Shown in pieces: positions 17,991-20,793 of a DNA stretch of 40,677 nucleotides. Each line of letters starts with the position of its first letter. Within the stretch, counting starts at the first letter, position 1. The notes under the pieces are model-generated. The model made no database searches, had not been told where the DNA came from, and saw only the letters and a list, made by a program, of their open reading frames with translations. This stretch comes from an uncultured Aeromonas sp. GTDB lineage: Bacteria > Pseudomonadota > Gammaproteobacteria > Enterobacterales > Aeromonadaceae. The stretch is taken from positions 1-40,677 of the forward strand of contig CAMFLW010000014.1 of NCBI GenBank assembly GCA_945957575.1, given 5' to 3'. A program made the translations under genes and the position numbers.

Positions 17991-18082
17991 AAGTTGTGAC
18001 AAGGGCAAACCGATTGAAAAGTCGGGACGCAAAGCTTCCGATCTAAGGGTCAAGACGACCTAGGATAGCGGGGCCACCACAG
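17991..18082 (+). promoter_or_regulatory. Cyclic-di-GMP class I (GEMM-I) riboswitch aptamer
   Basis: The RNA aligns with the Vibrio Vc2 aptamer: AGGGCAAACC (18002-18011), a GAAA-capped P1b of the same length, GGGACGCAAAGC (18024-18035), then the tetraloop receptor segment TAGGATAGCGGGG (18061-18073). The ligand-contacting bases of Vc2 have counterparts here: G20 at 18004, A47 at 18031 and the pairing C at 18077. P1 is TTGTG (17994-17998) with CACAG (18078-18082). It sits in the 5' leader of the chitinase gene and should sense c-di-GMP. Such aptamers upstream of chitin-related genes are known in Vibrio and Aeromonas. Confidence 0.93.
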
Positions 18083-18091
18083 TAGTATGCG

Positions 18092-18121
18092 GGCTGCCTT
18101 TGCCAAGGGGTGGCCGTTTTT
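18092..18121 (+). terminator. Expression-platform terminator of the c-di-GMP riboswitch
   Basis: GGCTGCC (18092-18098) pairs with GGTGGCC (18109-18115), with two central G-U pairs, followed by five T (18117-18121). The same GGTGGCC is perfectly complementary to GGCCACC (18072-18078) inside the aptamer, so antiterminator and ligand-bound aptamer exclude each other. This predicts c-di-GMP-induced termination. Confidence 0.65.
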
Positions 18122-18180
18122 GTGTTACCTGTCGTGTTGCGTTGCCCTTTCGTTTTTCCCATAACGAAAAGGAAAGCAAG

Positions 18181-20793
18181 ATGCTAAGTCCAAAACCCGC
18201 ACTGCTGGCCATGATGGTCGGTACCCTGCTCGCCTCCTCCGCCGCTTATGCGGCAGCTCCCGGCAAACCCACCATCGGCTGGGGCCCCACCAAGTTCGCC
18301 ATTGTCGAAGTCGATCAGGCGGCAACCTCCTACAACAATCTGGTCAAGGTGAAAGATGCCGCCGATGTGGAGGTGAGCTGGAACCTCTGGAGCGGTGACG
18401 TTGGCCAGACTGCCAAGGTGCTGCTCGATGGCAAGGAGGTGTGGTCAGGCCCATCCGCCGCCGCAGGCACCGCCAAATTCAAGGTGAACAAGGGGGGTCG
18501 CTACCAGATGCAGGTGGCCCTCTGCAATGCCGACGGCTGCACCCTCTCCGACAAGAAGGAGATAGTGGTCGCCGATACCGACGGCAGCCACCTGGCGCCG
18601 CTCAAGGCTGCGCTGCAGGAGAACAACAAGCCCTACGCCAACAAGTCCGGCAAGGTGGTCGGCACCTACTACGTGGAGTGGGGCGTCTACGGGCGCAAGT
18701 TCACCGTGGACAAGATCCCGGCCCAGAACCTGACCCATATCCTCTACGGTTTTACCCCCATCTGTGGCGGGGATGGCATCAATGACAGCCTCAAGGAGAT
18801 CGAAGGGAGCTTCCAGGCGCTGCAGCGTGCCTGTGTCGGCCGGGCCGACTTCAAGGTGGCGATCCACGATCCCTGGGCTGCCGTCCAGATGCCGCAAAGC
18901 GGCCTGACCGCCTATGACGAGCCCTACAAGGGCAACTTCGGTGCCCTGATGGCGCTCAAGCAGGCCTACCCCGATCTCAAGATCCTCCCCTCCGTTGGTG
19001 GCTGGACCCTCTCCGACCCCTTCTTCTTCATGCATGACAAAGCCAAGCGTGACGTGTTCGTTGCCTCGGTCAAAGAGTTCCTGCAGACCTGGAAGTTCTT
19101 CGACGGTGTCGATATCGACTATGAGTTCCCGGGCGGCGATGGCGCCAACCCCAATCTGGGGGACAAGACCAAGGATGGTGAAACCTATGTGCTGATCATG
19201 AAGGATCTGCGCGCCATGCTCGACGAGCTGGAGGCCGAGACCGGTCGCACCTATCAGCTCACCTCCGCCATCGGTGCCGGTTACGACAAGATTGAGGATG
19301 TGGATTACAAGGCTGCCCAGCAGTACATGGACCACCTCTTCGTGATGAGCTACGACTACAACGGCGCCTGGAGTAATACCTCCTTGGGTCATCAGGCCAA
19401 CCTCTATCAGGCCACCAACGGCTCGGCCAACAAGCGCTACAACACTGACGCTGCGGTGCAGCAGTTGCTGGCGCAGGGGGTCGACTCCGAGAAGCTGGTG
19501 ATCGGTGCCGCCGCCTACGGTCGCGGCTGGCAAGGGGTGAGCGGTTATCAGGGCAACGATCCCTTCACCGGTACCGCCACCGGCAAGATCAAGGGCACCT
19601 GGGAAGATGGTGTGCTGGACTATCGCCACATCGTCAACAGCCATATGGGCGCGGGCTGGGAGTACAACTACGACGAGACTGCCGAAGCGGCCACCCTGTT
19701 CAAGCCCTCCACCGGCGAGCTGATCACCTATGACGACGAGCGCTCGGTCAAGGCGAAAGGCCAATACGTGCTGGCCAACAAGCTGGGCGGGCTCTTCTCC
19801 TGGGAGATCGATGCCGACAACGGCGACATCCTCAATGCCATGCACGAGGGGTTGGGTCACGGCGAGGGAACCACTCCGCCAGCCAACAAGCCGCCGGTGG
19901 CCAACGCGGGCAGCGATTTGAGTGTCACTGGCCCGACCGAGGTGACGCTGAACGGCTCCGCGTCCCACGACCCGGAAAATGGCGTCCTCACTTATAGCTG
20001 GAAGCAGGTCTCCGGCCCGCAGGCTGCCCTGCTGGATGCCACTCAGGCCAAGGCCCGTGTTGTACTCGATGCCGTGGCAACCGACATCAATCTGGTGTTC
20101 GAGCTGACGGTGACCGATGACCATCAACTGACCGCCAGGGATCAGGTGGTGGTGACCAATAAGGCGCCGCAGCCCAACCTGCCCCCGGTCGTTACTTTGC
20201 CTGCCAGCGTCAAAGTGGAAGAGGGCAAGCAGGTGAGCATCACTGCCAAGGCATCCGACCCCAATGGCGACGAACTGATCTACCAATGGCAAGTGCCTGC
20301 CGGTATCTCGGCCACCGGCCAGAACAGCGCCACTCTGGTGGTCACTGGCCCTGCGGTGGATGTCGAAACCGGTTATGACCTTTCAGTGACCGTCTCCGAT
20401 GGCGCACTCGACGCCAACGCGGCCACCCGTCTCACCGTCACGCCAGTCAACGAAGGCGGTGAGGGGGGCTCTTGCAACACCACAGATCCGGAAGCGGCCA
20501 ATGTCCCGGCATGGCAGGCCAGCAAGGTCTACAACGGCGGTGACAAGGTGAGCCACAACCAGCTGGTGTGGCAGGCCAAGTACTGGACCCAGGGCAACGA
20601 ACCGAGCCGAGCCGCCGATCAGTGGGCGCTGGTGAGCAAGGTGCAACTGGGGTGGGATGCCAATGTGGCCTATAACGGTGGCGACCTGACCAACCACAAC
20701 GGGCGTCAGTGGCAGGCCAAGTGGTGGACTCAGGGCAATGAGCCGGGCAAGCACGATGTCTGGCTGGATGTCGGCGCCGCCAGTTGCAAGTAA
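18181..20793 (+). CDS. chiA: Secreted GH18 chitinase with PKD and two chitin-binding domains
   Basis: An 870-residue exported chitinase. A signal peptide (to about residue 24) precedes the ChiA-type N-terminal domain (about 25-137). The GH18 barrel (about 155-560) has the catalytic DGVDIDYE with Glu315 as acid, the same number as in Serratia ChiA, plus SVGGW and MSYDYNGAW. Two PKD-like domains follow (about 569-655 and 665-755), then two CBM5/12 modules (764-870, each with AWQA..VYNGGD and WxAKxWTQGNEP). The start ATG 18181 is preferred because AAGGAAAG precedes it and the signal peptide begins there. Upstream is a c-di-GMP riboswitch; downstream, 72 bp away, is the M66 protease, which shares its C-terminal modules. 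Confidence 0.95.
20467..20793 (+). repeat. Tandem chitin-binding module repeat, chitinase copy
   Basis: These 327 bp up to the stop align without a gap to 23521-23847 in the neighbouring protease gene (offset 3054). By my count the first 120 bp differ at about seven positions; the remainder is clearly more diverged. Confidence 0.9.

Follow-up and report, generated by a model that had tools for sequence, protein, structure and literature searches.

A class I cyclic di-GMP riboswitch in an Aeromonas chitinase leader with two predicted OFF layers sharing one aptamer strand

Background

The two class I riboswitches of Vibrio cholerae for cyclic di-guanosine monophosphate (c-di-GMP) act in opposite directions and are described as exerting no control over termination (PMC6366702). 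Vc2, in the tfoY leader, represses translation when bound (PMC7371385), whereas Vc1, upstream of gbpA, is activated by c-di-GMP (PMC4744006); the direction of a class I element has to be tested case by case and cannot be guessed from its aptamer (PMC6366702). Residues G20, A47 and C92 of Vc2 have been named as ligand contacts, and Bc1 of Bacillus thuringiensis is reported to combine transcriptional with translational effects (both PMC11218506). In Cd1, from the flgB leader of Clostridioides difficile, the antiterminator of the unbound (apo) form is only transiently stable (PMC9262584). An aptamer upstream of an Aeromonas chitinase is already in print, in a single sentence and in passages of that source that give neither mechanism nor direction (PMC6366702). 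The present analysis concerns such a leader, that of the chitinase gene at 18181..20793 on contig CAMFLW010000014.1 of an uncultured Aeromonas sp., within a stretch of 40,677 nucleotides (nt) hereafter called the window. Judged by titles and beginnings of abstracts, none of the matches listed in a search of the open-licence literature reports the direction or the platform of this leader. A study by Inuzuka (2018) reportedly deals, according to its title, with the masking of a distant ribosome-binding site in the Vc2 context.

For this leader a two-layer OFF switch on the chitinase is proposed, in which termination of transcription and access to the ribosome site would both depend on one aptamer strand (18000-18007). 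Judged from sequence comparison and folding models this is held to be the probable reading, and OFF at high c-di-GMP is the most likely direction, being predicted by every route found in the window. An earlier inspection of the letters (the sequence-only reading) had described a purely transcriptional OFF switch driven by pairing of 18072-18078 with 18109-18115. Its riboswitch class, target gene and predicted direction find support here, but its mechanism is incomplete: the key helix, formed to 9% in the window, is probably not the decisive one, and both the pairing of 18000-18007 with 18095-18102 and the conserved Shine-Dalgarno hairpin at 18133-18183 are missing from it.

Results and discussion

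Aptamer, target gene and leader set

The ATG at 18181 opens a GH18 chitinase of 870 amino acids, in which an N domain of the ChiA type is accompanied by PKD/Ig-like domains and CBM5/12 modules. Its closest named homologue, among 40 named homologue loci, belongs to A. veronii (93%). The parts of the leader that enter the argument, and the gene itself, are the following.

17994..18081, + strand: c-di-GMP-I (GEMM-I) aptamer (RF01051, 79.4 bits; contacts invariant in 36/36 leaders)
18000..18007, + strand: P strand, CAAGGGCA, comprising junction J1/2 and the first strand of P2; proposed switch strand, pairing with 18095-18102 or partly with the anti-Shine-Dalgarno block
18072..18078, + strand: A strand, GGCCACC, comprising the P3 closing strand, a ligand contact and the first P1 base; partner in the antiterminator of the sequence-only reading
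18092..18121, + strand: intrinsic terminator with U5 (18117-18121), from a pattern scan; pairs kept in seven clade leaders
18095..18102, + strand: segment of the terminator's first strand, UGCCUUUG, complementary to the P strand (proposed P:T antiterminator)
18133..18183, + strand: hairpin taking in the Shine-Dalgarno GG (18171-18172) and the AUG (18181-18183); fold -16.3 kcal/mol, p 0.004 against shuffles
18137..18149, + strand: block UUGCGUUGCCCUU, containing the anti-Shine-Dalgarno strand; complementary to AAGGGCA (18001-18007) and ACGCAA (18027-18032)
18181..20793, + strand: GH18 chitinase (domain matches, 870 amino acids)

The covariance search with RF01051 that the sequence-only reading had suggested (cmscan) matched 17994-18081 (+) over the full length of the model (positions 1-87/87; E 3.7e-14), its 79.4 bits lying well above the gathering score of 35 bits. 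By its sequence the aptamer is a genuine member of a known riboswitch class at a known kind of place, and binding of c-di-GMP is predicted. The Vc2-like ligand core had been placed correctly: the putative contacts G18004, A18031 and C18077 carry the expected residues, occupy columns that are invariant in 36/36 aligned chitinase leaders and presumably correspond to G20, A47 and C92, the register being taken from the RF01051 alignment and from the Vc2 numbering. P2 is capped by a GNRA tetraloop (GAAA, 18016-18019), which in clade D leaders reads, by eye, GCGA, GCAA or GTGA. GEMM-Ib (3',3'-cGAMP) aptamers are marked by A instead of G at position 20; 18004 is G. P1 is predicted to pair 17995-17998 with 18078-18081, with C18078 as its first base.

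Across 37 genomes of the genus, RF01051 gave 146 matches in 35/37; the window's own genome has four. Among 52 protein matches to the chitinase only the 40 that include the N-terminal part of the protein were used, and at 38/40 of these an aptamer lies 99-310 nt upstream on the same strand. Alignments and clade counts comprise 36 of these 38 leaders, L034 and L060 being left out. The other 108 aptamer matches were sorted by downstream gene into families named via Pfam from one representative each: CL0 (31; GbpA-like lytic polysaccharide monooxygenase), CL1 (31; a second GH18 chitinase with Ig and CBM domains), CL2 (19; sigma-54 regulator), CL3 (11; a further GH18 protein), CL4 (9) and others (7). 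Pfam gave no match for the CL4 representative, which is probably a fimbrial subunit, going by the look of the protein and a published remark.

A conserved hairpin over the Shine-Dalgarno site

The hairpin at 18133-18183 is the conserved part of these leaders. With its two basal pairs enforced during folding, a core of at least 8 pairs forms in 52/52 leaders (36 Aeromonas chitinase, 9 CL4 and 7 Shewanella chitinase); in unconstrained local folding the site is paired in 32/36 chitinase and 9/9 CL4 leaders. Where Aeromonas has the stem UUCGUU/AACGAA, Shewanella has AUUG/CAAU, so that the letters differ and the pairing is kept, and in L066 the outer stem shows a two-sided change from C-G to U-A. 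The proposed translational layer is the widespread one and probably the older of the two. As a separate observation, an additional hairpin, AGGGC/GCCCU, is folded by four of the five clade D leaders and would leave the Shine-Dalgarno site free.

Pairing between the aptamer and the anti-Shine-Dalgarno block

The aptamer segments complementary to the block are both strands flanking P2. The exact string TTGCGTTGCC occurs in 18/36 chitinase leaders, GCGT-N-GCC in 35/36 and the CL4 form in 9/9, the block standing in all nine CL4 leaders behind a different middle region; in Shewanella, UUUGCCUU is found in 7/7 leaders, against AAGGCAAA. When the aptamer was scanned by segments (3/19 CL2 leaders were dropped, having no recognised start), the segment with the strongest complementarity was the first strand of P1, J1/2 and P2 in four groups, CL0, CL1, CL4 and chiB (best mean z -1.9 to -3.8); in chiA the 5' pocket strand was weakly complemented (z -1.5). 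A joint scan of the two pocket strands gave p<0.05 in 9/9 CL4, 17/18 chiB, 6/7 chiA, 3/3 chiC, 4/5 chiD and 2/3 chiE leaders, and in 7/31 CL1, 3/31 CL0, 1/16 CL2 and 0/11 CL3 leaders; L060 was negative. With the anti-Shine-Dalgarno part held fixed, the same scan retained 9/9 CL4, 3/7 chiA, 5/18 chiB, 2/3 chiC, 1/5 chiD and 0/3 chiE leaders.

In transcripts long enough to include it, the block is paired to the aptamer at mean values of 0.94-1.00 across CL4 and the five chitinase clades, and at 0 with the aptamer held. In the full window leader the Shine-Dalgarno hairpin is occupied to 0.66-0.67 when free and to 0.99 with the aptamer held; across full leaders mean occupancy changes from 0.24-0.70 to 0.74-0.99, and in clade E from 0.99 to 0.98. 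Of the 45 chitinase and CL4 leaders, 24 were put through a control in which the region upstream of the anti-Shine-Dalgarno strand was shuffled, and ten of these stood at no more than 4/30 shuffles (L056, L057, L058, L035, L041, L062 and four CL4). L068 was mis-anchored in the two-strand scan, in the block-pairing folds and possibly in part of the segment scan, and was re-anchored for this control. As for a translational OFF element of the Vc2 kind, the hairpin is conserved and its exclusion in the apo form is predicted, in the window no more strongly than in shuffles. A fair reading of the models is that the likeness of the anti-Shine-Dalgarno strand itself to a complement of the pocket strand suffices for competition, with a further contribution from the rest of the block in some leaders only.

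Two further ideas were tried and dropped. An independent need for the UUGCGU half of the block was rejected because the anti-Shine-Dalgarno part alone pairs with the aptamer in shuffles, and equilibrium folding of full-length leaders, taken by itself, proved too noisy, the aptamer-competent fold staying below 10% in 32/36 leaders.

Terminator and competing helices

Upstream of the hairpin, 18092-18101 pairs with 18106-18115 (10 pairs, 5 of them G-C; 4-nt loop; -13.4 kcal/mol), followed by GUUUUUGUG; where 0.9 such sites would be expected in the region, the pattern scan found 2. Of the 36 aligned chitinase leaders, 6 have a U5 tract following the mid-leader hairpin, all in the window's clade. 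The seventh leader of this clade, L066, is without U5, eight clade C and D leaders have T4 elsewhere, and the tract was looked for in L034 and L060 and found in neither; the scan ran as far as the anti-Shine-Dalgarno block, within which clade B carries a T5. A terminator switch as a general rule was rejected on these counts, and conservation of both helices of the sequence-only reading in other Aeromonas leaders does not extend beyond the window's clade. From this distribution the terminator is probably an addition in that clade. Within it, pairing is kept in 70/70 cells of the seven leaders (21/500 shuffles reach the same number), and one pair is changed on both sides in two of the seven.

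An order of events during transcription is suggested by equilibrium folding of the window's partial transcripts. The aptamer accounts for 67% at 88 nt; at 109-116 nt the P:T pairing (18000-18007 with 18095-18102) stands at 99-100%, and the aptamer-competent ensemble is less favourable than the whole by 4.8-5.2 kcal/mol, a gap of a size that the affinity of c-di-GMP binding could pay. In 7/7 clade leaders P:T reaches at least 88% before the last strand of the terminator is made. At 122-128 nt the terminator forms to 82-89% in the window and to 99-100% with the aptamer held. Since the terminator wins at equilibrium, any delay by P:T, and with it antitermination, must be kinetic, which matches the description of Cd1 (PMC9262584). 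When both pocket strands were scanned together, their best partner in the window was 18088-18102, the terminator's first strand (p 0.003).

The alternative pairing noted in the sequence-only reading is perfect and does reach the ligand strand and the first P1 base: GGCCACC (18072-18078) and GGUGGCC (18109-18115) form 7/7 Watson-Crick pairs at -13.5 kcal/mol, with p 0.016 (region to the U-tract) or 0.008 (to the AUG) against 2000 dinucleotide shuffles, values uncorrected for selection. At 122-128 nt the helix is present to 9% in the window, 92% in L057 and 0-17% in the other five clade leaders; it uses the terminator's last-made strand and so has to compete with a local hairpin of 4-nt loop. 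In the clade 98% of its cells are paired and it is perfect in 5/7 leaders, with no two-sided change. In L056 and L066 it is weakened to G-U, and in L066 one pair (C.A) is broken, because the terminator arm has changed together with its own partner. Two-sided changes in the terminator and their absence from this helix make selection visible, in the alignment, on the terminator and not on the helix, in a small sample of seven related leaders. As the preserved helix it was rejected on its folding share, the weakening in L056 and L066 and the co-variation of the terminator; since it beats shuffles it is kept as a possible helper and is probably secondary. The 5' pocket strand and the Shine-Dalgarno hairpin are the better-supported switch parts. 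For transcriptional control a terminator is present and two competing helices are possible, and both alternatives predict OFF.

Proposed mechanism and its alternatives

In the proposed two-layer switch, strand 18000-18007 would leave the aptamer in the absence of ligand. During transcription it would first pair with 18095-18102 and so delay the terminator; in the finished leader it could, together with 18027-18032, pair with the block 18137-18149, which would remove the anti-Shine-Dalgarno strand and leave the ribosome site more open. Bound c-di-GMP would block both uses of the strand: the terminator would form, and in transcripts escaping termination the hairpin 18133-18183 would hide the Shine-Dalgarno site and the AUG. 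By keeping hold of the terminator's last strand, the helix 18072-18078/18109-18115 may contribute to antitermination. A bolder joint reading is put forward tentatively, as an idea more doubtful than the switch itself: the Shine-Dalgarno-like pocket strand (AAGGGC) would be the single arbiter of termination and translation, capturing the terminator's first strand and then the anti-Shine-Dalgarno strand, c-di-GMP would shut the chitinase at two steps, the platform would travel with the aptamer and serve unrelated genes (chitinase, probable fimbrial subunit) in two genera, and chitin breakdown would be a low-c-di-GMP activity. On this reading the helices 18000-18007/18095-18102 and 18072-18078/18109-18115 might also exist side by side in the unbound state, as a pseudoknot locking both terminator strands.

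Several results weigh against the two-layer switch. In the segment scan the 3' segment is better complemented in chiC (z -2.7 vs -1.6) and about equally in chiD, the CL2 signal lies in P2, and CL3 and chiE show no mean below -1.0. Shuffling the upstream region leaves the pairing with the aptamer almost undiminished (null mean 0.91, L042), and the change in hairpin occupancy in the window is 0.32 against a null of 0.35, 12/30 shuffles being at least as high. No change with the aptamer held is predicted for L044 and L050 (0.99 either way) or for clade E, and L053 has the opposite sign; 4/36 chitinase leaders, all of clade D, fold locally with the site open when unconstrained. On the transcriptional side, the terminator alone barely beats shuffles (p 0.09, fold of 18088-18121) and forms at equilibrium anyway in the window and in 5/6 other clade leaders, complementarity of the P strand by itself to the window's leader does not exceed chance (p 0.08-0.14), and co-variation was looked for in P:T and in 18072-18078/18109-18115 and found in neither. 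Aptamers outside the genus show no general trend of complementarity (mean z -0.42 to 0.46) at the 29/47 loci usable, the anchor patterns having failed at the 18/47 dropped; L197, L225, L217 and L194 score below -2.5, but were picked after the fact.

Some of these results would suit an OFF switch acting on translation only, with a terminator hairpin that is constitutive, weak or irrelevant and the Shine-Dalgarno hairpin as the sole ligand-responsive part. The hairpin is indeed what is conserved, 30/36 aligned leaders lack U5 behind the mid-leader hairpin, the terminator fold has p 0.09, and the V. cholerae riboswitches are said not to use termination (PMC6366702), Vc2 acting on translation (PMC7371385). 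Against it, pairing in the terminator is intact throughout the seven clade leaders, one pair having changed on both sides, and 6/7 retain T5; this explanation is considered unlikely. Quite unlikely, too, is the switch of the sequence-only reading, in which 18109-18115 would pair with 18072-18078 in the unbound and with 18092-18098 in the bound form. A perfect 7-pair helix of -13.5 kcal/mol with p about 0.01, intact in 5/7 clade leaders (98% of cells) and preferred by the model in L057 (0.92), speaks for it; its share at 122-128 nt (9% for the window, 0-17% for five further leaders of the clade) speaks against it, as do the weakening in L056 and the broken pair in L066, where the terminator co-varies with itself, a U5 terminator in only 6/36 aligned leaders, and the omission of the Shine-Dalgarno hairpin.

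The remaining alternative, that the bound form favours expression or that the leader is a fixed attenuator free of ligand control, has a precedent in Vc1, an ON element upstream of the chitin-binding gbpA (PMC4744006), and would fit L044, L050 and clade E, with no predicted change, and L053, with its opposite sign. With the aptamer held, however, the hairpin reaches a mean occupancy of 0.74-0.99 across CL4 and the five chitinase clades, the window standing at 0.99, and formation of the terminator is predicted; an ON or unresponsive leader is judged very unlikely.

Distribution of the aptamer and leader variants

The two chitinases without an aptamer match, L072 (A. cavernicola, G006) and L073 (A. 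simiae, G028), belong to the two genomes without any RF01051 match, and are a natural loss experiment. A decayed aptamer is recognisable in L072 (21.5 bits, below the cut-off) and, by eye only and with no model match, in L073. The Shine-Dalgarno hairpin still folds in both, and the genomes keep 20 and 35 GGDEF matches; a GbpA query found no match in either, in a search made without a positive control. Outside the genome set, an Rfam search of 20 of the 40 named homologue loci found the aptamer at 7/7 Shewanella orthologues, 3/3 chosen veronii-type Aeromonas and one Photobacterium, and did not find it at 3 Serratia, 2 Vibrio, 1 Franconibacter, 1 Alteromonadaceae and 2 decayed Aeromonas loci.

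Chitinase copies stand in tandem in five genomes, two per genome and each preceded by an aptamer of its own (L066, L067-L071). In G034 the leader in front of the second copy (L066) is of the window's type, and in G003 a leader of the other type (L067) precedes the only chitinase of window type, which suggests an exchange of leaders. The hexamer GCCAAG (18102-18107 in the window) recurs in 36/36 aligned chitinase and 31/31 CL1 leaders within a stem that differs between clades, and is possibly a binding site for another RNA or protein. In 5/7 Shewanella chitinase leaders (L237, L238, L239, L243, L261) a run of at least 5 T follows the aptamer, in several of them right behind the predicted P1 strand. 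In many CL0 leaders upstream of GbpA-like genes (e.g. L118-L135) the aptamer's AGUCAUUUGGC finds its complement in GCCAACUUGACU or a closely similar string, which would be a different platform aimed at the same aptamer strand.

Promoter region and neighbouring genes

Two elements lie 5' of the aptamer.

17956..17961, + strand: probable -10 element TAGAGT (TATAGT in several relatives), from its position in the alignment
17968..17982, + strand: P0, a short inverted repeat GCGAT/ATCGC just 5' of the aptamer, seen across the aligned Aeromonas leaders

A sigma-70 scan gave no match on the + strand. P0, which reads GTGAT/ATCAC in L057 and sits between the probable -10 element and the aptamer, probably lies at the 5' end of the RNA, where it may form a hairpin, unless it serves as an operator in the DNA. 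The gene following the chitinase (20866-23847, +) codes for a metalloprotease of the M66 (StcE/TagA) type, which, like the chitinase, contains CBM5/12, here in two stretches. A GGDEF domain of the diguanylate cyclase type (39085-39555, within the gene 38242-40578, -) lies in the same window as the riboswitch, and a second RF01051 aptamer was looked for in the 40,677 nt and not found.

Implications and comparison with known systems

The leaders provide a testable direction of control for a ChiA-type chitinase in Aeromonas, and in this genus further chitinase genes, GbpA-like genes, a regulator and a probable fimbrial gene carry the aptamer as well. If the predicted direction is true, chitin breakdown would be a low-c-di-GMP activity in Aeromonas and perhaps in Shewanella, in contrast to the chitin adhesin gbpA of Vibrio, which is favoured at high c-di-GMP via Vc1 (PMC4744006). 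The suggested rule would be that a ligand strand resembling a ribosome site can capture the strand that hides the real site.

The Aeromonas case already in print is of the same genus and the same kind of target as the window, as far as the published passages go. With Vc2 the leader shares the aptamer class and, by prediction, translational repression on binding (PMC7371385); it differs in being a chitinase leader with a clade-specific intrinsic terminator, a likeness and a difference drawn without a base-by-base comparison of the platforms. Cd1 is a class I transcriptional OFF element in which, as predicted for the window, the bound aptamer coexists with the terminator and the apo antiterminator is transient (PMC9262584). 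Its antiterminator is made by an A strand with T and H, whereas the better-supported first competitor in the window is the 5' aptamer strand together with the terminator's first strand. Bc1, finally, also combines a transcriptional and a translational layer in one leader (PMC11218506); it has two terminators and its layers are called incoherent, whereas the two layers of the Aeromonas chitinase leader are predicted to act in the same direction.

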